Assembly: GCA_029259895.1 (NCBI GenBank)
Contig: JAJDEG010000134.1
Coordinates: 1 to 35,343 of the forward strand
Source of the DNA: Planctomycetota bacterium
GTDB lineage: Bacteria > Planctomycetota > Planctomycetia > Pirellulales > PLA5
Length of the DNA stretch: 35,343 nt
Direction of reading: 5' to 3'
In this document: positions 4,878 to 27,699 of the stretch, piece after piece
How the letters are laid out: the number at the start of each line of letters is the position of its first letter
Numbering within the stretch: position 1 is the first letter of the stretch
The notes under the pieces: model-generated
The model's database searches: none
Told to the model about the DNA's origin: nothing
The model's input: the letters and a program-made list of their open reading frames with translations, nothing else
Position numbers and translations under genes: made by a program

Positions 4878-5122
4878 CGGCCCTCTCGCGAATGCGGCGG
4901 CCGCGGCGATAGCCTACACAGCGGCAAAGGACGAAACTGGCAACGCAGTTAGCAGTGACGTTCGCCGCGCGGGGCCAGTACCGCGAGTTCACGCAAGAGC
5001 GATTGTCGTCAGGCACGCGCAGCAAATCACCATGCCCGTGAACCCGCCAGGGCCGAAGTATTCAAGAAAAAGGTCGCGCCAGGACATGGCACCTTCCGGC
5101 AACGATTGGCAAACGGCCGGAG

Positions 5123-6559
5123 TTAGGTGACTCGGCGCAATGGGTGCAGCCTTCGGGAAAAGATCAAGAGGGAAACACCCGTTATGCCAGCGAGCAGGGC
5201 TGACGACGGTTCGGGGACTTGGACGCCGCCGGGGTTAGACGTTAGTTCAGGGAATGGAATGCCGTCGCCTGGCAGCAACTTTATCTCTCGAATCGGAAGT
5301 TCCCCCGGCGGATTCGTCGTGGTTCCGTCGACGGACTCCGGCAGACCTAATCGGCCCATGAAGAGAATGCTATCCGTGCGTTGGTCGCGCAGAAAGTACA
5401 GGAAGGGATGATCGGCGTTGAACACCTCGAATTCGGCCGGCGGCGGGCACATGCACGTTGTAATGCCAACGACAATGGCCGTGGCAGCCGCCGCTTCCGT
5501 ACCGGCCTCATCGACCTCAATGACAGCTTTGTGAATAGCGCGATCGACGAAAAGATCCACGTCGGCGATTCTCGTTAAGTCTGGATTTGCGAAGGTTTCG
5601 ACCATGCCCAGCGCCGCAAGACTGGCGTTAAGATTGAGTTGCGATTCGATACGGAATTTTGGTAGACGAAGCGAAACGGACGTTCGCGTCATTGCGTCGA
5701 GGGAATCTTGCAGGATGTTGGCCGTGAGGTTTTCCTCGAGCGCCGCGAGGCCGTCGATTTCACTGGGTAACACGACGACCATCGACACATCACTCGCTCG
5801 ATATGGGAGTTCGACCATTTGGAAACCGTCGAACGCGCCGTAACTTAGCGAGCTGCGCTGGTACATCATCGAAACGTTGTGCGATTCGTCTTCGGACGTG
5901 TGAAATTCGCCCGTGTAAGTGCTTTCCTTCTTGAACGGCGATTGCCACTTGGCTTTCATGTAGACGGCGTTCGTGAGGACGAGGCCGGTGTTCTGTTTGA
6001 TGCTGCCTGCGGGAAGCAAGTCGACGATCTTATCGCGGGTTTGCTGTTGCACCCAGGCGTTGATGCGCTGGCGGCCGGACTCTGGGTCGGCGTAGAAGTC
6101 GAGCGTTTCGAGCGGGGCGCGATAGTCGGACTGCAACGTGTCGAGGAATGGCTGTTTGAACGGAAAACGGCTCGCGCCCCACAGCCGATTGGCGACGGCA
6201 AAGTCGAAGCGCTCGCCGTTGCGAGCGTTTAGATCGTCGGAGAGAGCACCCAGAGTCGAGTGGACGATCGGCTCGTCGACGGACCAATGCATGACGCGGC
6301 CGATTTCGTCGGCCGTGGTGCCGCGGGCCCCAGCGTATAACATGCCGAACGCGGACGAGATGCTGTACGGTGAGTAGACGAAGTTCGCCGTGTCGGGCGA
6401 GATATACTGGCGGTAAAGATCGAACGCGAAGGCGTTATTACCTTCGACAACGGCAGAGTGAACGCCGTCCACTCCGGCCGCGCGAGACGAGTCCACGATC
6501 GCGGTGATCGAAAGGACGAGGCCAAAGACAATCAACGGCTTTTGAACCATTTGGCGCAT
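5123..6559 (-). CDS. Exported serpin (inhibitory type) with PEP-CTERM sorting signal
   Basis: A 478-residue serine-protease-inhibitor family protein. The chosen ATG at 6559 gives a signal peptide (hydrophobic residues 8-21, likely cleavage near SRA-AG at 26-28) and is preceded by GGGAAG eight bases upstream; the frame opens further, to 6664, but with non-signal sequence. The serpin fold covers about 37-406, including FVYSPYSISSAFGMLYAGARG, LVLTNAVYMKAKW and the closing HPFLYFLRD...ILFMGRL. The hinge before the reactive loop reads EAGTEAAAATA (351-361), the small-residue pattern of inhibitory serpins. The loop after it is IVVGITTCMCPPP, so the P1 residue is uncertain (a Thr or Cys region). After a linker comes VPEP at 448-451, a hydrophobic segment and an RR-containing tail, which is the PEP-CTERM signal recognised by exosortase systems. 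The target protease is unknown. Confidence 0.93.
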   Translation of the reverse strand: MRQMVQKPLIVFGLVLSITAIVDSSRAAGVDGVHSAVVEGNNAFAFDLYRQYISPDTANFVYSPYSISSAFGMLYAGARGTTADEIGRVMHWSVDEPIVHSTLGALSDDLNARNGERFDFAVANRLWGASRFPFKQPFLDTLQSDYRAPLETLDFYADPESGRQRINAWVQQQTRDKIVDLLPAGSIKQNTGLVLTNAVYMKAKWQSPFKKESTYTGEFHTSEDESHNVSMMYQRSSLSYGAFDGFQMVELPYRASDVSMVVVLPSEIDGLAALEENLTANILQDSLDAMTRTSVSLRLPKFRIESQLNLNASLAALGMVETFANPDLTRIADVDLFVDRAIHKAVIEVDEAGTEAAAATAIVVGITTCMCPPPAEFEVFNADHPFLYFLRDQRTDSILFMGRLGLPESVDGTTTNPPGELPIREIKLLPGDGIPFPELTSNPGGVQVPEPSSALLAGITGVSLLIFSRRLHPLRRVT

Positions 6560-9860: not shown

Positions 9861-10832
9861 CTAATGTCTCAGTTGGTACATATGCCATTTGGCCACCGCA
9901 AAACCGACGCCCATGCCGACGAGCAAGCCGACGCCGTGGGCCGTGTTGGCGACCGGACCGACGAAACCGAAAAGGCACACGAAGAACCACACGATCATCA
10001 GCATCACCGTCTGGTCGTCCATGTGGTAGCGCGACAACGGATCGCGCCGCGCTCGCATCCAGACGTACCCGAATAGCCCGTAAACGACGCCCGACATCCC
10101 GCCGAACCACGGTTTGGGGACGATGGCGACGAGGTCGGGCCGCGTCGTCAAAAAGTCTTCCACATTGGGATAATAGAACTGCGCCACATTCGACGATACC
10201 GCGACGCCGGCGACCAGCAAGGCGAACTTCCACGAGCCTTCGATCGCCTCGACCACCATGCCGAGGTGATACAGCCACATCATGTTGAACAGTAGATGCA
10301 TGGGATCCAGATGAAGCAGGATCGGCGTCACCAGACGCCAAACCTCGCCGTGGGCGACGGCTTCCAGCGAGGCGGGCTGTCCGACGAGCGGCGGTTCGGC
10401 GATCCAAATGCGGTCGAGAAACGCCGCTCGACGGGCGTCGTCGCCGGGTTTGATTCCGCCGAAATTCGTAATCAGCGTGACGGCGACGCTGGCCAAGATG
10501 AGCAGCATCACGACCGGCGTGCGGCCGATCGACGCCTTGCGCCAGTGTTGCCGCATGTCGACGACGTTGCGCCGCGCTTGTTGCTCGCGGGCGTCCTCCA
10601 CTTTTTTGATCGAGCGGGCTAGCGGCACGGCGGCCGCGTACTTTGGATCGCCGGGGTTGGTCGCGAAGGCCGCGAGTTCGGCTTTCGCGCGTTCGATTTG
10701 CGCCTCGTCGCGGACCCACAGGCTCCAGCCGTTGCTCTCGCTGAGGACGCGCGTTGCGATGCCGATCGTCAACAGATACTCGGCCAGCCGCTGCGCGTCC
10801 GCCTGTTTCTCGATGATGCCGGCCTGTCGCAT
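9861..10832 (-). CDS. Rhomboid family intramembrane serine protease, GlpG type
   Basis: An integral membrane protease of 323 residues that cleaves transmembrane substrates within the bilayer. The N-terminal cytoplasmic domain (about 1-60) has the GlpG layout. A long basic linker is followed by six predicted membrane segments from about 105. The active-site features match GlpG: HLLFN with Asn183, GGMSGVVYGLFGY with nucleophile Ser247, and NTAHGVGL with catalytic His299. HMDDQ follows the serine helix. The ATG at 10832 is chosen because the domain starts there; the 57 codons upstream look non-coding and no Shine-Dalgarno sequence precedes this ATG. It converges on the SDR gene, leaving 92 bases between the stops. 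Substrates are unknown. Confidence 0.93.
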   Translation of the reverse strand: MRQAGIIEKQADAQRLAEYLLTIGIATRVLSESNGWSLWVRDEAQIERAKAELAAFATNPGDPKYAAAVPLARSIKKVEDAREQQARRNVVDMRQHWRKASIGRTPVVMLLILASVAVTLITNFGGIKPGDDARRAAFLDRIWIAEPPLVGQPASLEAVAHGEVWRLVTPILLHLDPMHLLFNMMWLYHLGMVVEAIEGSWKFALLVAGVAVSSNVAQFYYPNVEDFLTTRPDLVAIVPKPWFGGMSGVVYGLFGYVWMRARRDPLSRYHMDDQTVMLMIVWFFVCLFGFVGPVANTAHGVGLLVGMGVGFAVAKWHMYQLRH

Positions 10833-11122
10833 GGATACCGCTGGTCGAAGGGGCGAAAGGGAAGAGCCGTAGCCTTCAGAATCGAACGCCGTGCATCTTA
10901 TCCGTTGCGTGGCGGACGGACCACGGCGACTGGGATTTCGCGTCGTTGCGCCGCGAATGAAGGGGCGAAATTGCGTCGTCGGCGCGCGCCAACCGCGACG
11001 CACCGAGAATCGACGCGCTTCGTCTTCGTCGACGACTTAGGCCAAGAGGGGCGGTGCGGCCCGCTGCGCATCAAAGGACGGCGCAAGAGAACCACCGTGC
11101 CCAACCACGGCCAAGGACTAAT

Positions 11123-11499: not shown

Positions 11500-14400
11500 T
11501 CACTCGACCAATCGACTGATCATCACGGCGCGATGGATGTTGTTGATCTGACCCGGCTGACAGGCCACCGGAATCGTCCGATCGACGACGTAAAAAGCCC
11601 TGTGCCGCTCGACGGCTCCGGTATCCCAGCCAATCTCCGCGCCGAGTTGGAAGCCGTCTGGATGCGATTCTGACGGTGCCGTTTGCTCGGCCTCGAACCG
11701 GCCGACGGTGATCCAGATCGCGTACACATTCGACCGCGTCGTCGTCGTGGCGGCCATCCGCATCAGACTTTGGTAATAGAAGTACGGATTTCGCTTCGGA
11801 TAAGGACTCGCCTCGGCACCGCCGCCCGCCGCGTCGAAAGCGAACAGCGGCGTGCTCGAACCGCGCGACTCGCGACGGAAGATCGTCACGTCGATCGGCT
11901 TGATTTCCTCGCCGGCACCTTCCGGCGGAACGAGGTCGGCCCCGCCATACGAGCGGAACGGACGCTCGAACCCGCCCGTCGTCGTGCTTCCACGGGCGCT
12001 GTTGAGGTTCGTAAAGGTCCGCTCGTATTGCGTCTGGTTGGGCTGACTCGTCAACACGGCCACCGGCGGTGCTTCGGAGACGGCGTTGAGATTCGTTCGA
12101 CCCGGCTCCCGATAGCTGTTGACCCGGTTGAAGAACGGCGGTCGCATCATCTCGATTTCCGTGTAGTTCTCCGCCGTGCCAGCCACTTCCGTGCCAACCC
12201 ACGGCGAGGGAACGCCGACGAACTCGAACAGCATGGCCCAGTCCTGCGGACCGAGCACGGACGTGCCGTCCTGGGTGTTGTAGAAGAAGTTGCGCAGATG
12301 CGGGAAGTGCCATCGTTCGCTGGGACGCGAATAGATATCGGCGCCGTCCGCGCCCTGCCGCACGACGTTGTATTGACGCAACAGATCGAACGACGAACCG
12401 CGCGGGACGAGCAACAGCTCCATCGGATTGGCGAATGGGCGGTTGAGGAAGGTCAACCAGGGATAAGGCGTACCGGTCTCTCCCCCTTCGCCGCCGAGCG
12501 CCTTGTTGCGACGGCCGAACGAATGCTGCATCACGCCGGCCGGCACCTGGCCGCCCTTCTTTTCTTGCATCCACAACATGCTCTTGTGGTTGAATTGCGT
12601 TTCCGCCGTGACGCCACGTTCGCGCGTAACGAATTGCAGCGTGTCGGCCTCGGCTTCGCTGTTGTAGACCGTCAAGTCGGCCCACATCGAGTCGATCGTG
12701 CGGAACGGATTTTCGCTGAGGTGGAATGGCTTCGACGGGTCGGCCAGCCGCTGGAGATTCACCTTACGGTAGCCGAGCGTCAGGCCGGGCGTCGTCAACT
12801 TGGCGGGGGACTCGTCCGAGCGAAACGAATCGAGCGGCCGATCGAACTGAGGGACGTAGCTGCCGTCCGAGCCGTCGCCGCCAGGCCCGCCACGCGTGTA
12901 CGTGTGCGGCGTCATGGTGCCTGGCTCGATGATCGTGTCGGGATAACCGCTCTGTCGACCGTTGGGAGAACGGTAGTCGTTGTACGCGGCACCCGGTTCG
13001 GTTACGCTCGCCGGACGTTCGTCCTGCACCGTGTCTCCGCCGCCCGGCTGACGCTGGCCGTCGCAAACGATGGCCACCGGGGGAAGTCCGGAGAGCGGAT
13101 CGTTTCCGGCGCGTTGATTGAAGACTTCGACGATGCCACCGGTCGGATCGATCGAAGGCGTCAGCTTGATCTCACGATTCTGGCCAAAGGTTTGAATGCG
13201 CCGCGAACCGATGACGGCGAATTGGCCGGGGCGAATCGGCGAGATCGGCTGCAAAGTGCGGCGGAAAAAGTCCCACTGATTACGCGTGCCGTCGCCCGGC
13301 AGCGATACGGGCTTGTCGTCGAAGTAGACGGTCCGCGTGTAGTTACCTTCGCCCCGCTCGATCGTGGAGGTCGGCAAGTCGTCGAGTTGCGTGAAATCTT
13401 CCCGATGGAACGCCATCCGCCACACCGGCTTCGCGCTCGATGCCTGACCTTGCACCAGCGGGGGCGAAAGCTGATCGAGCACGACGCCCGTGCTCAACTG
13501 CGTCGAGCGGCTGTGCTGATACAACGCTCCGGGAAACGCTTCCTTGTCCGTCCACGGGTTGTAAAGCTCGACGTAGATCCAGCCCTGCGGCTTTTTCCGC
13601 TGCACGCGCTTGCCGGCGTCTTCGTTGAACCGCGCGTCGTGACCGACGAGCGCTTCGGTAATGATCAACTCCGGTCGCTCGACGCCGAACACGGTCTGCG
13701 AGTTCCACGCCGCGTTGCCCAGCGTCGGCGCCAACCAACCATCGCTGTCGAACGGATCGATGTCGTACGTGAACCGCGTCATGATCCCATCGCGGTCGCG
13801 CATATCGCAGACGTTCACGCACCACTGGGCGACTTCCTTGCAGAACGTGCGGTGCGTGATGCCTTGCCAGTCGTACGTTTCGTCGCCGGGCGTCGCCACG
13901 GCCAGAATCAACACGAACAGGTTGCGAATGTAGACGTCGCGGATGTCGTCCTTTTCCAATTCGATCGAATCGTCGTTGAGCAACATCGAGTCGCCGAAGC
14001 CTTGCAAGGGTTCGCCCAAATCGCCCTCGCCCTTGTGCGAGAGGACCTTGCCACCTTCGTCGACGATGCCGTTGCGGTTGTCGTCCAGACCGTTGCCGAA
14101 CGGACGATTCAAATTCATCCGCAACCCGGCCCGCATCTCCGCCGGCACGTAGGCCCGGAGCAACATCGATTCCTCACCGCCGCCCTTCTTGATGCGCGCG
14201 CGGAGGATGTCGACGTAGCTCCTTGCGACGCGGGCAGTATCTCCGCTGACCGCCGACTGGGCCAGCGTCAACTCGCGAATCGTTTTGCGAACCTGCACGT
14301 TCGGTCCGGGTACGTCGAAGTTGCCCGGCGAAATGCGGTAGGGATAATCCTTCAACTCTTCGGGCAGTAGATTCCACAATCGTTCCGGTAGTCCGGTCAC

Positions 14401-16137
14401 GTCGCCGTCGTTGCGGCGGATGCACCGTTCGTACTCGGCGTAGGTAAACGGCGTATCGCGAGCGCCGGGCAACGGACCTCGGGGCGCGTTTCGCGAAAGG
14501 TCCAACTCGTAAGGCGAAACCGTGGCCCCTTCGGCACTCGTAGGCGGCGGCTTGAGCCAATTCACCTGACCCGTCTTGGGGTCGATGTCCAGCGGACGCG
14601 TGCTCCACAGGTACGGCGGCGGAGAACCGAAATCGCGGGCCATCGGATGCTTCGGTTCCCACTGCCAATTCTGCGGCAAATACTGCTGCCGCGAATCGCG
14701 AAGACGCTCTTGATCTTGCTTGGTGCCAGGCTGACCGTCGGCACCGTAACGCCCGAGTTCGTTCGGGTTCACCTTCGAGCCGGCCGACGGCTGTCCCAAT
14801 ATCTTGCGGAACCAGCCCGGCGTGTTGGAGAGCGGTATCGGATCGAGTTCGGCGGCGCCCGTGGCGAGACCGTATCCGCCCTTGGGGGCTTCGCCGCCTT
14901 CCTGGGCGGCATGCGCCATGTTTCCGACGGCGTTGATGTCGATGCCGCCGTCGAGCGGACGGACCTGGATCGCCACCAGATGCTTGTACGATTGGCCGTT
15001 GGCGGCCACTTGGGCGGGCCAACCTGGATCGAGCCACACGCTGTCCGGACGGCCGTCACGGTCGTTGTCGACATCCCACGGGCCTTCGACCGGATCGAAA
15101 TTCGGATTCGAGCCGGAGAAGTTCGGATTGTCTTCCTTCATCGGGCGGAGCATCGTTTTCCGCGACGCGCCCGACTTGCGGATCATTGCCGGCCGGTGAT
15201 ACGACGGGATGACCGTTTGAGTCGCCGCGCCGGGCACGTAGGCCATGAACATGTTGTCCATGTCGGCCGCGTCGTATTCTTCATTCGCGCCGCCGAAGAG
15301 CAGCCCGTTGTCGGCTTTGTCGACCCAATCGCGAAAGCTGTTGACGCTCTTGCCGAAAACTTCGCCGAAGTTGACCGATTCGCGCACCGGGCCGCCTTCG
15401 CCCTCGGCGTCGAGACGGTGCGTCGATTTGTTGTAGCCGAAACCCAACCCGGAAAACGGTTGTCCGTTGATCCAGACCCGATCTTGCGCGCCGGGCATGA
15501 CGCGGCGCGGTTCGTCGGCCACCCAAGGGCGGACGCGAATAATGGTAGGCGTGTCCAAGTTCTGCCAAATGATGTGCGTCGAAAGGCCGATGCCTTCGCC
15601 GTCGAGCAACGTAATGACCGAACCGGCCAGGTAGCCCATCTCTTCCAGCGTCGTGCGGCCGAACGGCATGTTCGTTGGCGTCGAGAGCGTGATTTCCAAC
15701 ATCTCGCCGTTGGCTTTTTCCTCGACGGCTTGGATCGACGTGCCGATGCCGAAGTGGCCGTACATGTCGCCGAGCATGTCGTGGAACACGAACGGCGAAC
15801 GGGGATTCGTCGTTCCGACCAACGTGTAGTAGAGAGCCGTGTCGGCGATTTCCTTGGGATCGGTGCCGTAGTAACCGCCGCCCTTATTGATCGCGTACGA
15901 CGACTTTTTGTGGCTGCCGGCGGAGACGACGTAGGTAATGGCGATCATCGAGAACAGCGACAGCAGGCTGATGATCAGCAGCAAAATCACACCGCGGCGA
16001 TTGCCGTCGCCGCGATGGCCGCCTTGCCGACGAAGCGACCGGCGACGACGTTGTCTGCGCCACGATTGCGACTCGCGTCGTTCCTCGGGCCAGGATGACC
16101 AGGAAAACTCCTGGCGACTTCCGTTTTCCAGCGACAT
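11500..16137 (-). CDS. Giant GspK-like pseudopilin-type protein
   Basis: A 1,545-residue protein, about five times the length of usual GspK (300-340). An Arg-rich cytoplasmic leader (about 1-48) is followed by RRG and a single hydrophobic helix (50-73), a type IV prepilin-like N-terminus. The residue at mature position 5 would be Leu, not Glu; lack of Glu5 is known for GspK, the pseudopilus tip protein. The rest would be periplasmic. It holds two Asp/Asn-rich calcium-loop-like motifs: DVDNDRDGRPD at 355-365 and GNGLDDNRNGIVDEGG near 680-695. IDINAV near 400 recalls the LNxN segment of GspK. The ATG at 16137 has AGGAG about 8 bases upstream. It is the last gene of the cluster. It might cap the pseudopilus, but that role is inferred from position and N-terminus only. 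Confidence 0.75.
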   Translation of the reverse strand: MSLENGSRQEFSWSSWPEERRESQSWRRQRRRRSLRRQGGHRGDGNRRGVILLLIISLLSLFSMIAITYVVSAGSHKKSSYAINKGGGYYGTDPKEIADTALYYTLVGTTNPRSPFVFHDMLGDMYGHFGIGTSIQAVEEKANGEMLEITLSTPTNMPFGRTTLEEMGYLAGSVITLLDGEGIGLSTHIIWQNLDTPTIIRVRPWVADEPRRVMPGAQDRVWINGQPFSGLGFGYNKSTHRLDAEGEGGPVRESVNFGEVFGKSVNSFRDWVDKADNGLLFGGANEEYDAADMDNMFMAYVPGAATQTVIPSYHRPAMIRKSGASRKTMLRPMKEDNPNFSGSNPNFDPVEGPWDVDNDRDGRPDSVWLDPGWPAQVAANGQSYKHLVAIQVRPLDGGIDINAVGNMAHAAQEGGEAPKGGYGLATGAAELDPIPLSNTPGWFRKILGQPSAGSKVNPNELGRYGADGQPGTKQDQERLRDSRQQYLPQNWQWEPKHPMARDFGSPPPYLWSTRPLDIDPKTGQVNWLKPPPTSAEGATVSPYELDLSRNAPRGPLPGARDTPFTYAEYERCIRRNDGDVTGLPERLWNLLPEELKDYPYRISPGNFDVPGPNVQVRKTIRELTLAQSAVSGDTARVARSYVDILRARIKKGGGEESMLLRAYVPAEMRAGLRMNLNRPFGNGLDDNRNGIVDEGGKVLSHKGEGDLGEPLQGFGDSMLLNDDSIELEKDDIRDVYIRNLFVLILAVATPGDETYDWQGITHRTFCKEVAQWCVNVCDMRDRDGIMTRFTYDIDPFDSDGWLAPTLGNAAWNSQTVFGVERPELIITEALVGHDARFNEDAGKRVQRKKPQGWIYVELYNPWTDKEAFPGALYQHSRSTQLSTGVVLDQLSPPLVQGQASSAKPVWRMAFHREDFTQLDDLPTSTIERGEGNYTRTVYFDDKPVSLPGDGTRNQWDFFRRTLQPISPIRPGQFAVIGSRRIQTFGQNREIKLTPSIDPTGGIVEVFNQRAGNDPLSGLPPVAIVCDGQRQPGGGDTVQDERPASVTEPGAAYNDYRSPNGRQSGYPDTIIEPGTMTPHTYTRGGPGGDGSDGSYVPQFDRPLDSFRSDESPAKLTTPGLTLGYRKVNLQRLADPSKPFHLSENPFRTIDSMWADLTVYNSEAEADTLQFVTRERGVTAETQFNHKSMLWMQEKKGGQVPAGVMQHSFGRRNKALGGEGGETGTPYPWLTFLNRPFANPMELLLVPRGSSFDLLRQYNVVRQGADGADIYSRPSERWHFPHLRNFFYNTQDGTSVLGPQDWAMLFEFVGVPSPWVGTEVAGTAENYTEIEMMRPPFFNRVNSYREPGRTNLNAVSEAPPVAVLTSQPNQTQYERTFTNLNSARGSTTTGGFERPFRSYGGADLVPPEGAGEEIKPIDVTIFRRESRGSSTPLFAFDAAGGGAEASPYPKRNPYFYYQSLMRMAATTTTRSNVYAIWITVGRFEAEQTAPSESHPDGFQLGAEIGWDTGAVERHRAFYVVDRTIPVACQPGQINNIHRAVMISRLVE

Positions 16138-16370: not shown

Positions 16371-17462
16371 TTACTTTCTCCCCGTCGTTGGGCTGGCGCC
16401 CGGCGACCACATGGTTTGGCCTTCGAGTTGGACCATTTTCTCGATCACGGCGACGACGCTCTCAAACACGATGGCCGTGGGCTTGCTGCCCGATTGCGAG
16501 TCCCAGTCCGGTCCCATCAGCGACACGACGCGGTCGGAGCGGTCCTCGGCCACGGAACCTTCGACCGTGCCTAGCCGATACCAGCGGAATAGCCGTTCGT
16601 TGTCGGTGAGCAGAATCCAACGCCGCGGACGCAGGAACTTCTTGGCGTCGTCGTCGGCCCCTTGCGGAATCCGCAAACGAAATTCGTTGCCGCCGAGCGT
16701 TTCCGCGTCCATCCTCAGCGCTCGCCGCGGCTGGTTCCCGGGCGTGTCGCGGAAGAACACCACGACCGACATCAGGTAAGTGTCGAGTTTGAATTCCGGT
16801 GCCAGCGTGCCGTTGGGCATGACTTGCATCGGCGAGAGCATCGCCATCCAGGAATAAATCGGCGTCGTGCGCCGCCGCGGGCCGCTTTGACCTTCGCGGA
16901 ATTGCATCGGCACGCGGGTTTGCTCCTTCGGACGGTCGAACAGCAGGTTGTCCTGGCCGACGAAAACCCGTTCCGCGACGGAAGTCTTCATTGCTCCGGC
17001 CGAGTTGTCGTTCTCCGTCGCCATCGCCTCGCGAAGCGAAAGCGTCTTCACATCCGCACCGGGAATCGCCTGCCCGCCGGAAAGCGACGACAGCGGATCG
17101 ATCACCAGCGTCTTGCCGCTGAACTCGGGCTTCATGACGCCGGTTTCGGCGTCGACGACGGCCTGTCCGCCGGAGAGCCAGTTTCGCGGGTTCAGATATC
17201 CGCGGAGCTTCATTTCGCGAAACGCCCGCAGCCCCGTTTCGGCCGAGCGATGGGCGATCTGGGCCTTGATGACTTCGCTATTGCCGACGGGAATGAGCGA
17301 CGCGACGCCCAACAGCCCGATCGACAGGATGAAGATCGCGACGAGTATTTCCAGCAGACTGATGCCGCGGGCGCGTCGGCGCGAACGGGACGAGAACCCG
17401 CCAACGCCGACGCCGACACCGGCCCGGCTTACGGCACCGGTACGTTTTTCAAATCGTATCAC
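16371..17462 (-). CDS. Prepilin-type protein, PilV/GspI-like
   Basis: A 363-residue pseudopilin-family protein. A basic leader of about 30 residues ends in RARG, followed by ISLLEILVAIFILSIGLLG, a canonical prepilin peptidase site with Glu at mature +5 and an LLG..S pattern typical of PilV and GspI minor pilins. The remainder is a long periplasmic domain, much larger than GspI (about 120). The upstream gene's TGA overlaps a possible TTG start in a TTGA junction, but the ribosome binding site GGAGGT at 17471-17476 is only two bases from that TTG. It lies eight bases from the GTG at 17462, which is therefore preferred. It probably serves as a minor pseudopilin in the same fibre as its neighbours. 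Confidence 0.82.
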   Translation of the reverse strand: MIRFEKRTGAVSRAGVGVGVGGFSSRSRRRARGISLLEILVAIFILSIGLLGVASLIPVGNSEVIKAQIAHRSAETGLRAFREMKLRGYLNPRNWLSGGQAVVDAETGVMKPEFSGKTLVIDPLSSLSGGQAIPGADVKTLSLREAMATENDNSAGAMKTSVAERVFVGQDNLLFDRPKEQTRVPMQFREGQSGPRRRTTPIYSWMAMLSPMQVMPNGTLAPEFKLDTYLMSVVVFFRDTPGNQPRRALRMDAETLGGNEFRLRIPQGADDDAKKFLRPRRWILLTDNERLFRWYRLGTVEGSVAEDRSDRVVSLMGPDWDSQSGSKPTAIVFESVVAVIEKMVQLEGQTMWSPGASPTTGRK

Positions 17463-17464
17463 GA

Positions 17465-18436
17465 TCAATTACCTCCGATTCCGAGCATTTGCCTGGCTTG
17501 CTCGCGTGCGTCTTTCACCGACCCGCCCCCACCGCCTTGGTTCGTCACGATCTCCGCCGTGGTCACCAATCCCGATTGATTTCCGATCGACACCCACAGG
17601 TTCCGATTGTCTTCCAAGTTTTCGCCCGAGGCGACCTTTTCAAAGCGTCCTAGCAAGAGATGGATCGGACCGGTTGGTATTTCGCTCGACTTGTCGTTCT
17701 TGTAGAAACGATCGATGTGCCCGCTGGGCGAGAACATGATGGTGACTCGATCGCTTCCCTGCTCGTTGAACTCGACGCCCGACGCGCCGACGCCGGACTT
17801 CGTCATGTCGACGACGACGTTGCCGCTCAATTGGACTGGCATGCCGATCGCCTTGCGCGGCTTGCGCATGATCTGGAAGGGGACGTTCATCGGCTGATCG
17901 CCGGCAGGCTTGGGCAATTGGCTCTGCAAACGCGACATGGCCGCGAACTGAACCTGCGCCCCGCCGGCCGACGTGATTTCGTAGATCGGGTCCTGGAAGT
18001 TGAAACGGATGAAGTCACCGGCTTCGATCAGCGACGTATTCGCGCCGGTCAGTTGGGCGCTGCCGCCCTCGCTAATCATCGCCCGCGCGTTTTCCGAATC
18101 GCCGGCATAAATCGGCGGCGACTCGGCGAAGTAGAGCGTTCGCGAGGCGGGTGCTTGGGGGTCGCTGTTCTCCGCCCGTTCGATCATCACGCCGAACGAC
18201 CGGCCGGTTTCAACGGCGCGGGCTTTGGCCTGATAGAACATCGTGGTCACGGTGCGGGCCGCTTCGCGCATACGACGCGATTCGATCGCCGGCCGGATCG
18301 CGGTGAGGATCATGCCGGCCAGCAACATCACGATCACCAGCACGACCATGATTTCAATCAACGTGAAACCACGGCGACGCGCGTTATTGTTCGTGATCCG
18401 TCCGCTGACGGATACGCTGCTTCGGTCCACCTTCAT
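17465..18436 (-). CDS. Prepilin-type protein, GspH-like
   Basis: A 323-residue pseudopilin. The leader ends RRRG, followed by FTLIEIMVVLVIVMLLAGMIL with Glu at +5. The next stretch, ESRRMREAARTVTTMFYQAKARAVETG, matches the helix and first loop of GspH/FimT-type minor pseudopilins, where strand-rich C-terminal domains follow. It is about twice the size of usual GspH. The C-terminus is Gly-rich (GGGGGS near 306-311). GGAGGT abuts the first ATG at 18442 with no spacing but lies six bases before the ATG at 18436, so the second is taken as the start. The stop lies two bases before the next gene's GTG, so the two are translationally coupled. Confidence 0.82.
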   Translation of the reverse strand: MKVDRSSVSVSGRITNNNARRRGFTLIEIMVVLVIVMLLAGMILTAIRPAIESRRMREAARTVTTMFYQAKARAVETGRSFGVMIERAENSDPQAPASRTLYFAESPPIYAGDSENARAMISEGGSAQLTGANTSLIEAGDFIRFNFQDPIYEITSAGGAQVQFAAMSRLQSQLPKPAGDQPMNVPFQIMRKPRKAIGMPVQLSGNVVVDMTKSGVGASGVEFNEQGSDRVTIMFSPSGHIDRFYKNDKSSEIPTGPIHLLLGRFEKVASGENLEDNRNLWVSIGNQSGLVTTAEIVTNQGGGGGSVKDAREQARQMLGIGGN

Positions 18437-18456
18437 CGTCATACCTCCGAGCGGAA

Positions 18457-18490
18457 GCCCCTAATGCCTGCCCCCTAATCCCTGCCCACT
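18457..18490. repeat. C-rich degenerate run (CCCCTAATGCCTGCCC type)
   Basis: Units of CCCCTAATGCCTG, CCCCCTAATCCCTG and CCCACTG fill the spacer between two pseudopilin genes. On the transcribed strand this reads as G-rich GGGATTAGGGGG, which could form a structure ahead of the ribosome binding site. It resembles the run before purQ at 2178-2221. Confidence 0.6.
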
Positions 18491-18493
18491 GCT

Positions 18494-19462
18494 CTACAAC
18501 GCCATGTGGTTGTGGATGTTGTCGTGGGAGTTGTCTTTGCCGTCCTGCGAGTATCCGTAGCCGTCTTCGTCGCGCGGCTGGCCCATCTGCATGCTGGAGA
18601 ACGGCTCGTTCCTGTTTCCCGAGTCGCCGCCCTTACCGCCGTGGTAGATGTCCCATTTCTTGTCGCGTCCGGCCGAGTAGATCAGCGGAAACAGGGCGAA
18701 AGCCTTATCGTCGGTCATCAGCGGATCGAAGGGATCGTGATATTCCTTTTTGCGCGCATTGGCTCGCGCCTCGGCGGGCTGGAAATCCGACTCGAAGCCG
18801 GGCGCCCAACGCAAGAACATGATCGGATTGCCCCAGCCGTCGTGGAATTCAAACAGTCCGTCGCCGTCGATGTCGCCGATCTCGCTGTCCTTGATCGAGT
18901 CGCGAATGCTCTCTTCCTCGCCCATTCGCGTGGTGAGGATCATGTACAGGCATTCGGCACCGCCGACGTCGTTGAAGTTGGCGCTTTGCGTGGCCGGTTT
19001 TCCGTCTTTGCCGCGGGCTTCGGCGAGCCGCCGCTGGTAGGCGCGGTTGGCGGCCGGACGGACGATTCCGGTCTGGGGCTGCTCCTGGACGTCGCTCCAT
19101 TTCTGCGGCAGTTCCATTCGCATCAATTCGCGGAGCGCTTGGAGCCGACGCCTTGCCGCGTCGATGGGCGACGTATTCGCCGTCGGGCCTTGGCCTTCCT
19201 GCCAGACGATCCGACGCGTTTCGTAGGTCATCCAACGGGCGAGCAGCGCTTCGTTGAGCCGCTGGACCGTGGTCCGCGTCTTGCGCTCGAGCGCGTTGTT
19301 CCGCGCGCCGGCAAGGGCGAACAGCATCATGCCGGCCAGCAGTGCAATGATCGTGACGACGATCAGCAACTCGACCAACGTAAAGCCCGAGTCGCGACGC
19401 TTTTGGCGGCGCAAGAGCCCTCTTGCCGCCCAGCGCGGCGGGATCGGCATAGCCACGTTCAT
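18494..19462 (-). CDS. Prepilin-type N-terminal cleavage/methylation domain protein
   Basis: A 322-residue pseudopilin. The leader ends RRDSG, followed by FTLVELLIVVTIIALLAGMML with Glu at +5. Then comes RKTRTTVQRLNEALLARWMTYE, a pilin-like continuing helix. DIDGDGLFEFHDGWGNP near 225-241 contains an Asp-rich calcium-loop-like segment next to the D.WG.P motif that major pseudopilins (GspG) carry near their calcium site. The C-terminus is Asp/Gly/His-rich. The start at 19462 is supported by GAGGAG eight bases upstream; the earlier open frame to 19585 runs through an intergenic repeat. The product is large for a major pseudopilin (about 140 is usual). Its precise role is unclear. Confidence 0.82.
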   Translation of the reverse strand: MNVAMPIPPRWAARGLLRRQKRRDSGFTLVELLIVVTIIALLAGMMLFALAGARNNALERKTRTTVQRLNEALLARWMTYETRRIVWQEGQGPTANTSPIDAARRRLQALRELMRMELPQKWSDVQEQPQTGIVRPAANRAYQRRLAEARGKDGKPATQSANFNDVGGAECLYMILTTRMGEEESIRDSIKDSEIGDIDGDGLFEFHDGWGNPIMFLRWAPGFESDFQPAEARANARKKEYHDPFDPLMTDDKAFALFPLIYSAGRDKKWDIYHGGKGGDSGNRNEPFSSMQMGQPRDEDGYGYSQDGKDNSHDNIHNHMAL

Positions 19463-19530
19463 GGTCGATGCTCCTCTTCGATAACGGCGTTGCCCCTCGT
19501 TTTCCGCCGCCGAAAACGGCGCGAACCTAA

Positions 19531-19592
19531 GTAGCATGGGCTGTGCCCAATGCGGTCGCGCTTCGTTCCGGCGGGCATAGCCCACCCCACAT
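19531..19592. repeat. Dispersed intergenic element, GGGCTGTGCCCA...GGGCATAGCCCACCCCAC type
   Basis: An imperfect inverted repeat, with GCATGGGCTGTGCCC at the left and GGGCATAGCCCACCCCAC at the right, lying between two pseudopilin genes. The arms resemble those of the elements at 31847-31925 and 35281-35343. It could form a stem in the operon transcript. Confidence 0.5.
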
Positions 19593-19595
19593 CAG

Positions 19596-20444
19596 TTACT
19601 CGCGGATATCTCCGATCTTCATCGTCGAGAAGGCGACGATATTGTCTTCGTCGGCCTTCGAGATGTACTCCGCACCGCCGGCGGCCGCCGCGCTGTCGAG
19701 CATGAGCGTGCCGCCGGTGCCGAGCAGCTTGTCGAGGCCGGCGGAAATGATTTGGCACGTTTCGGGGGCGGCGTATTCGCGATTGTTGCCGCCACCTCCG
19801 CCGCCTTGCTTGCTCTGCGACTGACCGCGGTCGTACGGTTTGAACGTGGCTTCGCGAAAGCGGTACGTGGCGTCGGCATACGTTTCGTAATAAAAGTACA
19901 AGTAGGGTGGATCGACGTCCGGTTCGTAGTCCGGCGCGTAGAACTTGCCGTTGCGGACCCGCCCGGCTGGGAATTCAAAAAACTTGAAGAAGTCTTCGCT
20001 TTGCGTGTTACTGCCGCCGAGGCCGCCGGATTCTTTCTTGAATGGCCGCTTCGGATCGGTGCTGACTTCGCTAAGCCAGTAGACAATCGCCCGGGCAGGG
20101 CCGGATTCGGTGTTCATCACGTCGCCTTCGGGCATTTCGCCAGCACGTGCCCTCGGAAACGCCTTCTGCACGAACCGCTGCATCTTCTGGTTGCCGCCGT
20201 TGCCGTCCGGGGGCAGCACCGTGAACTTCTCCCTGAACGACTCGAACGCGCCGTACACCTTGCTGACTTCTTGGTAGATGGCGGCTTCCTTGGCCCGGCG
20301 CAGGGCGGCGAACACGGCCATCGTGATCAACGACGCAAGGATGCCGATGATGACGATCACCACCAGTAGCTCGACCAGCGTAAAACCGCCGCGGCGGCTC
20401 GTACAGCGCGTCATTCCGATTGTACTCATTCCATTCCGCACCAT
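19596..20444 (-). CDS. Prepilin-type protein, GspG-like
   Basis: A 282-residue pseudopilin. The leader ends RRGG, followed by FTLVELLVVIVIIGILASLITMAVF with Glu at +5, the closest match in this cluster to GspG/major pilins. The helix continues with RRAKEAAIYQEVSKVYGAFESFREKF. The periplasmic part is longer than in GspG and ends with an EYAAPETCQIISAGLDKLLG segment like the final PxIxSAGxDG region of pseudopilins, so an annotation as major pseudopilin is reasonable. Gly-rich and Gln-rich patches lie near 205-220. Several ATG codons are possible. The one at 20444 is chosen for the AAAGGA 11 bases upstream, but ATG codons 5 or 10 residues later cannot be excluded. Confidence 0.82.
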   Translation of the reverse strand: MVRNGMSTIGMTRCTSRRGGFTLVELLVVIVIIGILASLITMAVFAALRRAKEAAIYQEVSKVYGAFESFREKFTVLPPDGNGGNQKMQRFVQKAFPRARAGEMPEGDVMNTESGPARAIVYWLSEVSTDPKRPFKKESGGLGGSNTQSEDFFKFFEFPAGRVRNGKFYAPDYEPDVDPPYLYFYYETYADATYRFREATFKPYDRGQSQSKQGGGGGGNNREYAAPETCQIISAGLDKLLGTGGTLMLDSAAAAGGAEYISKADEDNIVAFSTMKIGDIRE

Positions 20445-20571
20445 CTTGCACCAATCCTTTCTCGCTACGCCGCCGGTTGGCGACGTGCTCCGTAATATGC
20501 CCCGTTTCACCCCTTAAACCCTACCCGCGGCCATTCGGCCCAGGCATTCGTTACCCACTATTTGTTTTCGA

Positions 20572-21909
20572 CTAGCCACTACTCGACAGTTTCTGAATCA
20601 AGCCGACGAGCGGCATGAACAACGCGATGACGATAAAGCCGACGGCGCCACCGAGCAGGATAATGAGCAACGGCTCCATCAGCTTGGTCAAACTTTCGGT
20701 GAGCACCTTGACTTCTTCGTCAAAGTTGTCGGCCACTTTGTAGAGCATCGTATCGAGCTCGCCGGTTTCCTCGCCGACGTCGACCATGTTCACGACCAGG
20801 TCGTCGATCACCCGTTTGTTGGCCCGCATCAAGTACAGGACGACGCCGACGACGGGAATGAAGATGAAGAAGAACAGCGCCGCGAACGGCGAGAACTGCG
20901 TCTTCGAGTTCTGCTTCATCGGTTTGGCGATCGGTTCGCCCTCGCGAATCGCCTCGCTGACTTTCTGGTAGATATTCTCGAATACGGCGTTGCCGGTCGT
21001 CTCGCGGGTGATGTTGAGTGCTTCGAGAATCGGCACGCCGGACGACACCAACGTGCCGAGCGTTCGCGTGCTGCGGGCCAGCGCGTTCTTTTCGACCAAC
21101 TGTCCGAAAATCGGCACCTTGAGCATGAACAAGTCCCAGCCCAATCTGCCGGCCGGGAATTTGCGCATCAGTTTTATGAACAGCCACAGTGAGATGGGCA
21201 CCAGCGGGATCAAATACCAGTAAGTCACCACGCCCTCGGAAAAGTCCATGAGCATCTGCGTGACGGCCGGCATCTCGGCGTCGAACTCGGCGAAGATCTC
21301 TTGGAACTTCGGCACGATGAAAATCATGATGAACGTCAGGATCGCCGCGGCGAACAAGACGACGAACACCGGATAGAGCAGCGCGCCCTTGACCTGCCTC
21401 GCCAGAGCCAGCGACCGCTCTTGGAACTCGGCCAAGCGGCGCAAGATGACTTCCAACGCACCGCCGGCCTCGCCGGCTTTGATCATATTCACGTAGAGCC
21501 GGTCGAACACCTTGGGCGATTTGTTCATCGCCTCGGAGAGCGTGGAACCGCCTTCGATCTCGTCACAGGTGTCGATCAGCGCGTTCTTCATGCGGCCCGG
21601 CTTGCACTGGCCCTCGAGAATCTTGAGGCTTCGCAAGATCGGCAGGCCGGCATCTTGGAGAATTGAAAGCTGCCGCGTGAAGGCTGTGAGCACCTTTTGC
21701 GGAACGCCGCCGATGACGAAGGTCTTGCCCTTCTTATTGCCGGCGGCTCCGGCTGCCTTCTTGGCCTTGCCTTTCTTGACGCCGATCTTGGTGACGTAAT
21801 ACCCCATCTGCTTGATGGTGGCGGTCGCCTCGGCTTCGGTGGGCGCTTCGATGACGTCCTTGATCTCCTGCCCCGCGGCGTCCATCGCTTCGAATTGAAA
21901 GGTCGGCAT
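20572..21909 (-). CDS. gspF: Type II secretion/type IV pilus inner-membrane platform protein GspF/PilC
   Basis: The platform protein that couples the cytoplasmic ATPase to pseudopilus assembly, 445 residues. Two GspF repeats are seen: the first with FTRQLSILQDAGLPILRSL at about 77-95, the second with STRTLGTLVSSGVPILEALN at about 280-299. Membrane segments lie at about 176-199, 231-247 and 413-436. In the second repeat, the usual short link before VVNMVDVGEETGELD is replaced by about 25 extra residues (338-362) rich in Phe/Leu/Val that look like a fourth hydrophobic segment. A charged Lys/Ala-rich linker (45-62) follows the N-terminal domain. GGGGAT is placed before the ATG. It is downstream of the three ATPases and upstream of the pseudopilins, the usual gene order. 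Confidence 0.94.
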   Translation of the reverse strand: MPTFQFEAMDAAGQEIKDVIEAPTEAEATATIKQMGYYVTKIGVKKGKAKKAAGAAGNKKGKTFVIGGVPQKVLTAFTRQLSILQDAGLPILRSLKILEGQCKPGRMKNALIDTCDEIEGGSTLSEAMNKSPKVFDRLYVNMIKAGEAGGALEVILRRLAEFQERSLALARQVKGALLYPVFVVLFAAAILTFIMIFIVPKFQEIFAEFDAEMPAVTQMLMDFSEGVVTYWYLIPLVPISLWLFIKLMRKFPAGRLGWDLFMLKVPIFGQLVEKNALARSTRTLGTLVSSGVPILEALNITRETTGNAVFENIYQKVSEAIREGEPIAKPMKQNSKTQFSPFAALFFFIFIPVVGVVLYLMRANKRVIDDLVVNMVDVGEETGELDTMLYKVADNFDEEVKVLTESLTKLMEPLLIILLGGAVGFIVIALFMPLVGLIQKLSSSG

Positions 21910-22131
21910 GGCGATCCCCTTACCTCGACTCGGATTTGCCCCGTGTCGCTCTGTTCTCGTTCGACTTCGTTATCGCGATTGGTATCGTGGACGGGTCAGC
22001 GCTGAATTCGGACATCCGGCACCCGCGATGGAGAGACGGGAGCGAGTCATTTCCAGCGTCATATCTCTAGTCCCTACCACCTTTTCACTTTACACGCTTG
22101 CCGACTCCTTTGCGACCACCCCCCAGGGTAG

Positions 22132-23847
22132 CTACGCTTCGAGAATCGTCTCGCGAATCACTTCGTCCATCGACGTCACGCCTTCAAACATGGCCTTGAT
22201 TCCGGCATCGCGGAGCGAGACCATGCCGTAGCCCTTGGCAACGTCGCGCAGTTCGTCGCGCGAGGCGTTTCGCATGATCATGTCGCGGATGTCGTCGGTC
22301 ACGATCATTAACTCGAATAGTCCGAACCGCCCCTTGTAGCCGGTATTGTTGCACTTGTCGCAGCCGGTGCCGCGAAAGACGCTCTTGCCTTCGACGTCCT
22401 TTTCGTTCACGCCGAGATCGAACAATTGCTCGCTGGTCGGTTTGGTCTCTTCCTTGCAATTCTTGCAAATCCTGCGGACGAGCCGTTGGGCGAGAATCGC
22501 TTCGACCGTGGCCGTAATCAAGAACGGCGGCACGCCCATATCGCGCAATCGCGTTACCGTGCTGGGCGCGTCGTTGGTGTGCAGCGTGCTAAACACCAAG
22601 TGGCCGGTGAGCGACGCTTGCACGGCAATCTCGGCCGTTTCGGTGTCGCGAATCTCGCCGACGAGGATGCGGTCCGGATCTTGTCGCAAGATCGCCCGCA
22701 GGCAAGAGGCGAACGTCACGCCGATCCCGGCGTCGATCGGGCATTGGACGATGCCGTCGATGTCGTATTCCACCGGGTCTTCGGTGGTGATCAGCTTGTC
22801 TTCGATCGTGTTGAGAGCGGACAGCGCGGAATAGAGCGTCGTCGTCTTGCCGGAACCGGTCGGACCGGTGACGAGGATGATGCCGTTGGGCTTATCGATG
22901 ACGCTGCGGAACATTTTCAGCGTGGGGGCGTCCATGCCGACCGAATCGAGGCTGAGCGCCGTGACCGATCGGTCAAGTACTCGCAGCACGCAGCTTTCGC
23001 CGAACATGGTGGGGAGCACGCTGACGCGCAAGTCGACGGGATGGCCGCCGACGTTGAGCTCGATGCGGCCGTCTTGCGGCATGCGGCGTTCGGCAATGTC
23101 GAGGTTCGCCATGACCTTGATGCGCGTGGTGATGGCGAACGAGAGGTGCTTGGGCGGCGGCACGATTTCGTACAACACGCCGTCGGCCTTGATGCGAATG
23201 CGGAACTCGTCCTCGAACGGCTCGAAGTGAATGTCGCTGGCGTGGTCCTTGATCGCCAGCAGCAGCACCATGTTGAGCAGCTTGCGAACCGGCGCGCTGT
23301 CCGCCAATGCTTCGACGCTGGTCAAGTCGGTCGCGCCGCCGGCCTCGGCGACGGCCTTCTTGAGGTCGGCGTCGGATTCCATCTCGCGGACGATCTTTTC
23401 GACGCTGTCGGCTTCGTCGTTGTAGTACTTCTCGATGGCGGCAAGCACGTCGCGTTCGCTGGCCACGACGCCGCGGATGTTGTAGCCCAGCAGCGTGCGC
23501 AGTTCGTCGCGAACGGCCAGGTTCTGCGGGTCGGCCATCGCGATGGTGAGCGTCTCATCGTCGAACTTCAACGGCACGATGCGATACATCTGGGCCATCT
23601 GCGGCGTGATCGTGTCGAGCACTTTTTGCGGCAACTGCACGCCTTGCAGACCGATGGTCGGCATGTTCATTTGCACGCCGAGCGCCTCGACCAGTTGCTC
23701 CTCGGTGAGCAAGTTCATGTCGAGGGCGATCTTGCCCATCAGCTCGTCTTTACGGTTGCGCTTTTGCTCTTCGAGCACGGCCTTGGCCTGCTCGGGCTTG
23801 AGCGCTTTCAGCTCGACCAACACCTGTGCCAAACGTTTCATTGCCAT
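22132..23847 (-). CDS. GspE/PilB family assembly ATPase, copy nearest gspF
   Basis: A hexameric cytoplasmic motor ATPase of 571 residues that powers (pseudo)pilus extension. An N-terminal MshEN/GspE_N-like domain (about 1-150) is followed by the core: DIHFEP at 205-210, Walker A GPTGSGKT at 328-335, Asp box TTEDPVEY at 354-361, Walker B ILVGE at 394-398 and the His box TGHLVFSTLHTNDA. Two CxxC pairs (Cys461/464 and Cys496/499) form the zinc-binding C-domain typical of GspE and PilB. Two ATG codons two residues apart could start it; neither has a strong ribosome binding site. It is the paralogue of the first gene of the cluster. This copy, next to gspF, is probably the one working with this platform protein. 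Confidence 0.93.
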   Translation of the reverse strand: MAMKRLAQVLVELKALKPEQAKAVLEEQKRNRKDELMGKIALDMNLLTEEQLVEALGVQMNMPTIGLQGVQLPQKVLDTITPQMAQMYRIVPLKFDDETLTIAMADPQNLAVRDELRTLLGYNIRGVVASERDVLAAIEKYYNDEADSVEKIVREMESDADLKKAVAEAGGATDLTSVEALADSAPVRKLLNMVLLLAIKDHASDIHFEPFEDEFRIRIKADGVLYEIVPPPKHLSFAITTRIKVMANLDIAERRMPQDGRIELNVGGHPVDLRVSVLPTMFGESCVLRVLDRSVTALSLDSVGMDAPTLKMFRSVIDKPNGIILVTGPTGSGKTTTLYSALSALNTIEDKLITTEDPVEYDIDGIVQCPIDAGIGVTFASCLRAILRQDPDRILVGEIRDTETAEIAVQASLTGHLVFSTLHTNDAPSTVTRLRDMGVPPFLITATVEAILAQRLVRRICKNCKEETKPTSEQLFDLGVNEKDVEGKSVFRGTGCDKCNNTGYKGRFGLFELMIVTDDIRDMIMRNASRDELRDVAKGYGMVSLRDAGIKAMFEGVTSMDEVIRETILEA

Positions 23848-24085
23848 GTTGCTAACCGCCGGTTATCGCGCTATTCACAATGCTCAGTCGTCAGTTTCCG
23901 ATCGAATTCGACTTCTCAATTCCCGATGCCTGAAGTTCTGCGGTTCCATCGGCGAAAGGATTCGCCTCCTACAGTCTCGTTTCGCACCACTTCCTCTCGT
24001 ATCGCCTCCGAAAGGTCGTTAAGCATCGGGTAACGGTCGTTCAACCTCATGCTCTGCCTGAAACTTGATACTTGAAGTTTCTCCA

Positions 24086-25195
24086 CTATCCTTCTTTTCC
24101 CGCCTCGGACGGTTTGTCGAATACGCCTCGCTTGGCGTTCGCCATGCGTCGCGCCATGTCGTCCGGCAAGTTTGCCTTGGCGAGCGCGTCTTCGGCCGTG
24201 ACTTGTTCGGTGTGCCACAGGTTGAAGAGTGAATCGTCGAGTAGAACCATGCCCTTCTTGGCGCCGGTTTGGATTTGCGAGTTGATGCGAAACGTCTTAG
24301 CTTCGCGAATCAGGTTTTGCGTAGCCGAGTCGCAGACGAGCATTTCAAACGCCGCCACGCGGCCGCCGCCGATCTTGGGCAACAACGCCTGCGACAGGAT
24401 GCCGACGATCGCGGTCGACAACTGGGCGCGGATTTGCTCCTGCTGCTGCGTCGGGAAGACGTCGATGATGCGGTTGACCGTTCCCTGGGCGCCGGTGGTG
24501 TGGAGCGTGCCGAACACGAGGTGGCCGGTTTCGGCGGCAGAGATGGCCGCTTCGATCGTTGCCAGGTCGCGCATTTCGCCGACGAGGATGACGTCCGGGT
24601 CTTGCCGCAGCGCGCGGCGTAGGGCCTCGGCAAAGCTCGGCACGTCGACGCCGACCTCGCGTTGGTTGACCGTCGACTTCTTGTGCGGGTGGTAATATTC
24701 GATCGGGTCTTCGACGGTGATGATGTGGTGGTCTTGGGTCTCGTTGATGAAGTTGATCATCGAGGCCAGCGTGGTCGTCTTACCGCAACCGGTCGGACCG
24801 GTGACGAGGAACAGACCGCGGGGCCGCATGACGAGCTGCCTGCAAACCGGCGGCAGCTTGAGATCCTCCATCGTGAGGAGCTTGTTCGGGATCTGCCGCA
24901 GCACCATCCCGACGTGCCCCTTCTGCTTGAAGATGGAGACGCGGAAGCGGCACATATCGGCAAATGCAAAGCCGAAGTCGGCACCGCCGTGTTCTTGCAG
25001 TTCTTGCTGCGCCCGCTCGGGGCTGATGCTCTTCATGAGGGCCATGGTGTCGTCGGGCTCGAGCACCTTGGTGTCGAGCTTACGCATCCGGCCGCTTAAG
25101 CGCAAGACGGGGGGCTGACCGACGGTGAGATGCAAATCGCTAGCGTTTTGCTTCACTACCGCGTTCAGCAATTTCTCGATAAGTATCTGTTCCAT
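24086..25195 (-). CDS. pilT: PilT family retraction ATPase
   Basis: A 369-residue secretion ATPase of the PilT subgroup, which drives pilus retraction and twitching in type IV pilus systems. Seen are the SDLHLTVGQPPVLRLSG N-domain start, Walker A GPTGCGKT at 133-140 (Cys in the place often held by Ser), VEDPIEY at 161-167, Walker B ILVGE at 203-207, and TGHLVFGTLHTTGA. The C-terminal PilT signature AIRNLIRE appears as ATQNLIRE at 291-298. There are no cysteine pairs, unlike the two flanking GspE/PilB proteins. No Shine-Dalgarno sequence precedes the ATG. Its position between the two assembly ATPases suggests a machine with both extension and retraction, more like a type IV pilus than a classical type II secretion system, which lacks PilT. 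Confidence 0.94.
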   Translation of the reverse strand: MEQILIEKLLNAVVKQNASDLHLTVGQPPVLRLSGRMRKLDTKVLEPDDTMALMKSISPERAQQELQEHGGADFGFAFADMCRFRVSIFKQKGHVGMVLRQIPNKLLTMEDLKLPPVCRQLVMRPRGLFLVTGPTGCGKTTTLASMINFINETQDHHIITVEDPIEYYHPHKKSTVNQREVGVDVPSFAEALRRALRQDPDVILVGEMRDLATIEAAISAAETGHLVFGTLHTTGAQGTVNRIIDVFPTQQQEQIRAQLSTAIVGILSQALLPKIGGGRVAAFEMLVCDSATQNLIREAKTFRINSQIQTGAKKGMVLLDDSLFNLWHTEQVTAEDALAKANLPDDMARRMANAKRGVFDKPSEAGKEG

Positions 25196-25366
25196 ACCGA
25201 AACGATGTGAAAATTGCCCAGGCCGAAGCCCGCTTGATTATTATTCGCCATCGGCCGATGGGAAACCAAGTCCAAAACCGGCGCGAAATGGCGAAATGCC
25301 GTTATTGTTCCAAAATCTGCGGCCGCAGCCGCGAGTCCCAAGTCTCAGATGTCAGTCTCCGATGTC

Positions 25367-27684: not shown

Positions 27685-27699
27685 CTATCGCGACGCCGC
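27670..27699. repeat. Tandem 15-bp duplication across the metallohydrolase stop codon
   Basis: CTACCGCGACGCCGT and CTATCGCGACGCCGC lie head to tail, 13 of 15 bases identical. On the coding strand the unit contains the stop codon, so a second in-frame TAG follows 15 bases after the first. Confidence 0.8.

Follow-up and report, generated by a model that had tools for sequence, protein, structure and literature searches.

The protein encoded on the minus strand of the window (the whole 35,343-nucleotide stretch of planctomycete DNA analysed here) is probably a secreted inhibitory serpin that serves as a substrate of the cell's exosortase. Judged by sequence comparison, the pairing of a serpin domain with a C-terminal PEP-CTERM sorting tail is a real and inherited architecture, which the window protein has in common with eight other serpins from a different family within its order (referred to here as f7).

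The serpin gene and its C-terminal tail

The interval picked out in the initial annotation coincides exactly with the bounds of a complete open reading frame (Table 1), with an SD-like GGGAAG located 7–12 bases upstream of the ATG. The N-terminus of the protein begins with positive charge followed by a hydrophobic core, where hydrophobicity over 15 residues is higher than anywhere else in the protein (mean Kyte–Doolittle value 2.57), as expected for a Sec signal peptide. The match to PF00079 covers the full-length domain (372 bits against a cut-off of 27, E = 4.9e-111, profile positions 2–367 of 370), and the closest solved structures are those of Serpin B3 (2zv6, E = 6e-79), Serpin B4 and leukocyte elastase inhibitor. 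The linker that follows has no Pfam match, and both its length and its sequence vary across an alignment of the nine tailed serpins. A weak terminator-like hairpin lies downstream of the stop codon, and the number of hairpins found (2, compared with 2.7 expected from shuffled sequences) is not above chance.

Table 1. Positions in the window of the serpin gene, the parts of its product and other features mentioned in the text.
Feature	Residues	Positions	Strand	Remarks
Serpin gene	1–478	5123..6559	minus	Complete ORF of 478 aa by translation; ATG at 6559, TAA stop at 5123–5125
Predicted Sec-type signal peptide MRQMVQKPLIVFGLVLSITAIVDSSRAA	1–28	6476..6559	minus	Putative cleavage site, from sequence
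Serpin domain	40–404	5348..6442	minus	Pfam PF00079
Hinge P17–P8 EAGTEAAAAT	351–360 (EAGTEAAAATA, 351–361)	5480..5509	minus	Inhibitory-serpin consensus
T367-T368-C369-M370-C371 (TTCMC)	367–371	5447..5461	minus	Predicted P1–P1' Thr-Thr, then P2'–P4'
Pro/Gly/Thr-rich linker (43 residues)	405–447	5219..5347	minus	Between Serpin domain and tail
PEP-CTERM sorting tail	448–478	5126..5218	minus	VPEP, hydrophobic helix, RRLHPLRRVT
Terminator-like hairpin, weak		5076..5092	minus	Downstream of serpin stop
Rhomboid intramembrane protease with Rhomboid_N domain		9861–11003	minus	3.3 kb from serpin

The extreme C-terminus, up to the stop codon, reads VPEPSSALLAGITGVSLLIFSRRLHPLRRVT, with VPEP at residues 448–451, the hydrophobic stretch ALLAGITGVSLLIFS at 454–468 and a basic end after it. 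This tail scores 14.7 bits with the PF07589 PEP-CTERM profile, under the cut-off of 20.7, and it should be noted that this gathering score is a library threshold and not a biological feature; those clade members with a listed PF07589 match are likewise sub-threshold (15.8–19.5 bits). We also built a genome-specific profile, using 29 PEP-CTERM tails encoded in the serpin's own genome. On this the serpin scored 16.1 bits, and 2000 shuffled versions of its final 45 residues reached 8.4 bits at most. The tail is more than chance because of this difference, and because P449-E450-P451 is invariant in all nine tailed serpins (the eight relatives are 38–44% identical to the window protein over the full length) while its distance from the domain varies; a chance origin was rejected on the shuffle test and the grouping of the nine in one clade. 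The sorting tail recognised in the initial annotation from its VPEP, helix and RR therefore holds, though below the Pfam cut-off. We do not regard the additional LHPLRRVT as a defect, since several accepted tails of the same genome also extend beyond their arginines (e.g., L018, which ends in ...ARRAVRRVASITVS). The basic ends are weak in some clade members (L060, ...CGRGPRQ; L099, ...AGRMRS).

The exosortase pathway to which the initial annotation had assigned the protein is encoded in the same genome, where three exosortases score above the cut-off. All three have the Cys (CSG), Arg (N-x-x-RI) and His (HDxxG) catalytic motifs, and they pass the cut-off of the wider TIGR04178 profile, with two of the three also passing that of TIGR02602. 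The genome further contains 69 PEP-CTERM tails above the cut-off, and an exosortase is encoded in each of the eight other genomes having a tailed serpin (and in 9/9 of the other genomes checked). Sub-threshold Planc_extracel matches were also seen in relatives of the same order, and these, with the abundance of PEP-CTERM tails, point to a planctomycete.

The neighbours of the serpin gene have housekeeping roles (purL, purQ, an Hsp70 family gene, surE and a 2-hydroxyacid dehydrogenase gene), with no exosortase or EPS cluster at the locus, and when the flanks of the nine tailed-serpin genes were compared, a common neighbour was found in L289 and L290 alone. A functional gene cluster was rejected on these grounds. 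We found no evidence linking the rhomboid protease to the serpin, and rhombosortase-type processing by this enzyme was set aside as the tail is of the PEP type and the rhomboid has a GlpG-like N-domain. Elsewhere in the window, positions 16371–27070 encode four pseudopilin-like proteins, one T2SSF protein and three T2SSE ATPases, and are flanked by two minus-strand ORFs without any Pfam match (11500–16137, 1545 aa, and 27685–30267, 860 aa).

The inhibitory-type loop and the predicted scissile bond

The inhibitory serpin hinge has the consensus ExGTEAAAA (PMC8233489), and residues 351–359 of the window protein (EAGTEAAAA) agree with this at every position from P17 to P9, including the small residues at P12–P9. 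With the full-length domain, this bears out the earlier assignment to the inhibitory type of serpin. The hinge is also intact in close relatives, with GTEAAAAT found in seven of the nine clade members and near variants in the remaining two (GTEAAGAT in L085 and GAEAAAVT in L101), and G353, E355, A356, A357 and T360 are invariant in the alignment, together with T367. Neither of the findings that the initial annotation named as contrary to its reading, a genome without exosortase or a mutated hinge in close orthologues, was thus observed. Setting P15 at G353 places P1 at T367 and P1' at T368, and the best evidence for a predicted scissile bond at T367–T368 is the invariance of T367 in the clade. 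Most of the clade relatives have T-S at P1–P1', compared with T-T in the window serpin. The loops are otherwise divergent, yet the P1 Thr is found in 9/9 members, which suggests that the clade may have kept a single specificity class directed at a protease taking a small β-branched P1 residue.

Distribution and ancestry of the tailed serpins

Our serpin searches covered 58 relatives, 397 genomes of the order, 392 of the phylum and 44 of family f7, and a further 398 genomes of the class were searched with a profile made from the tailed serpins. C-terminal ends were then inspected in about 220 distinct serpins from the phylum and in the 30 best class loci, and most of these proteins have no more than a few residues beyond the serpin domain. 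A VPEP or IPEP tail was seen in the window protein and in L060, L069, L071, L080, L085, L099, L101 and L103, all eight of them from f7. The class search returned the known tailed serpins at the top (those of G119, G081, G075 and the window), and the next loci among the 30 best were tail-less. A scan of genome contigs gave only a distant serpin from Ruminococcus.

A maximum-likelihood tree of 52 serpin domains, from which the tails had been left out, recovered all nine tailed serpins as a single clade (support 99/92, and 100% of 200 bootstraps), within which the window protein adjoins seven f7 proteins and L071 is outermost. A quick tree of 73 rows agrees on this clade, with weak support for the inclusion of L071. 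The simplest reading is that the tail was gained once and then spread vertically or horizontally; independent gains are not needed as one change would explain the tree. We note that L071 (the same gene as L286:3458-5170) has a dockerin type I-like linker (21.1 bits, cut-off 22.9) as well as a VPEP tail, and thus combines serpin, dockerin-like and PEP-CTERM regions within one protein. L039 (from G023), which lies beside the tailed clade, has a C-terminal extension of about 290 residues made of repeated units, which we take to be reminiscent of DUF4214.

The tailed serpins are patchily distributed, occurring in eight of the 44 f7 genomes and in the window genome. No tailed-serpin orthologue was found in the congener or sister species G001 (99% complete and exosortase-positive), the only serpin of which is the other paralogue. 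The genes that flank the serpin locus in the window lie on different contigs in G001, beside other genes, with gene order broken on both sides, and the locus is therefore a gene-order breakpoint. The GC content of the serpin gene (58.0%, and 70.6% at third positions) is the lowest of the eleven window genes compared, which may be a weak hint of acquisition. The second serpin of the window genome (L002, G000:C236) and its orthologue in G001 (L044, G001:C19) have a long N-terminal extension which looks STN/secretin-like by eye, and both are without a PEP tail.

A separate observation concerns eight f7 genomes with serpins having a Hint (intein-like) domain inside the reactive loop (L052, L149, L154, L155, L158, L159, L160 and L161). 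The four tested matched PF07591 PT-HINT with E values of 3e-15 to 1e-20, and in the four examined in full, Cys1 of the Hint domain falls exactly at P1 (GTTAAAATKVELGI-C-FAAGT), with a T-x-x-H block and a terminal HN before the remainder of the loop. Dockerin-like C-terminal repeats are present in some of these proteins. The Hint-interrupted serpins are possibly self-processing, and nothing on point was found in the literature searched that joins serpins with Hint domains or inteins; they may be more novel than the tailed serpins.

Proposed surface placement and alternative explanations

The protein we describe would be exported by the Sec pathway via its N-terminal signal peptide and, as in the known sorting pathway, would then be parked at the inner membrane by the VPEP–helix–RR tail until one of the three exosortases cuts near PEP and frees the serpin for delivery to exopolysaccharide or the outer surface. 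This location, also suggested in the initial annotation, is one that we infer by analogy. By the usual serpin mechanism, a protease accepting Thr at P1 would attack T367–T368 and the intact hinge would insert into sheet A, leaving the protease bound to the N-terminal part of the protein as a trapped acyl-ester. The fragments of cleaved serpins remain associated, with the C-terminal one bound non-covalently, and for this reason the spent complex would be expected to stay at the surface, held by the sorting attachment on the C-terminal fragment. The likely job of such a protein would be to shield surface or matrix proteins from a small-P1 (elastase- or subtilisin-like) protease, either foreign or the cell's own. 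The nine tailed serpins form one clade in which the PEP triplet and the P1 Thr are both invariant, and because of this we regard the architecture as real and inherited. That they are a distinct subfamily, in which a P1-Thr inhibitor is placed at the surface by exosortase and the trapped protease held through the C-terminal fragment, is a proposal we make tentatively.

Several findings count against an exosortase substrate, namely the sub-cut-off tail, the weak basic ends in relatives, the absence of an exosortase or EPS cluster beside the gene, the unconserved neighbours and the missing gene in G001. Were the tail a mere stop-transfer anchor, the serpin would stay in the inner membrane facing the periplasm, without exosortase processing, and act on the cell's own misdirected periplasmic proteases. 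A helix and positive residues would suffice for this, and the poorly basic ends of some relatives sit well with it, but an anchor has no need of a PEP triplet, which is nonetheless unchanged in nine divergent proteins, and every host genome encodes an exosortase; we therefore consider this explanation unlikely.

The remaining alternatives concern the loop. It might be a substrate or sensor, with cleavage leading to the relaxed state and so reporting protease activity, as many prokaryotic serpins are of unclear function (PMC8233489); we think this quite improbable as the P17–P8 hinge fits the inhibitory consensus given in the same paper and is conserved through the clade. The initial annotation had called the loop unusual for its two closely spaced cysteines (the CMC motif) and its proline run, and had suggested that these could allow crosslinking or redox control. 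On such a reading, a Cys369-x-Cys371 disulfide next to the scissile bond, or a link to the matrix, would gate inhibition. Proline runs are ordinary in this phylum (PP occurs in 73 and PPP in 36 of 180 serpin loops). Cysteine is uncommon (13 of the same 180 loops). Besides the window protein the CxC motif is found in L186 alone (as ECTC), and C369 and C371 are the only cysteines of the window protein; these two points favour a redox switch. However, these residues lie at P2' and P4' and are absent from all eight clade relatives, where the positions vary freely. The CMC motif is odd yet lineage-specific, comparative support for a redox role is absent, and we give a redox-switched or cross-linked inhibitor very little credence.

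An exosortase-sorted inhibitor can be compared with several known systems. The prokaryotic inhibitory serpins (miropin, siropins, chloropin and thermopin) have the full domain and hinge consensus in common with the window protein, and their N-terminal export signal would be matched by its predicted signal peptide; the window protein differs in the added PEP-CTERM tail. The eukaryotic Serpins B1, B3 and B4 resemble it in the hinge type and in a whole-domain match, but are without a sorting tail, and the Cys-Met near the scissile bond in the B1 loop is in a different register. Sorting by exosortase (EpsH) of PEP-CTERM proteins to the surface or exopolysaccharide has been described, with planctomycetes amongst the known hosts (PMC1569441), and the substrates recognised by PF07589 have the same V-P-E-P, hydrophobic helix, basic end and exosortase in the genome; the window protein differs in its serpin cargo, its sub-cut-off score and the eight residues that follow its first RR. 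That serpins can be placed outside the cell is itself known from the dockerin-bearing cellulosome serpins of Ruminococcus flavefaciens (PMC2930009), in which an extra module similarly places the serpin in an extracellular assembly, but there the module is N-terminal to the serpin and acts by dockerin–cohesin docking, in contrast to a C-terminal exosortase signal. Prokaryotic 'membrane anchored' serpins have also been predicted earlier from N-terminal peptides (PMC8233489). A full-text search, with most subscription papers outside its coverage, returned no description of a serpin with a PEP-CTERM tail, and for serpin and exosortase only a haloarchaeon genome paper in which each word is mentioned once. 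Within the literature searched, the tailed serpins are a small and previously undescribed branch of bacterial serpins, all with the same tag.

The functions of prokaryotic serpins have been described as 'relatively enigmatic' (PMC8233489). A clade that keeps an exosortase tag alongside an inhibitory loop whose P1 residue is fixed would point to a definite location for bacterial serpins and to a specificity that can be tested. It would also bring protease inhibition, as a defined cargo, into the highly varied set of PEP-CTERM proteins.
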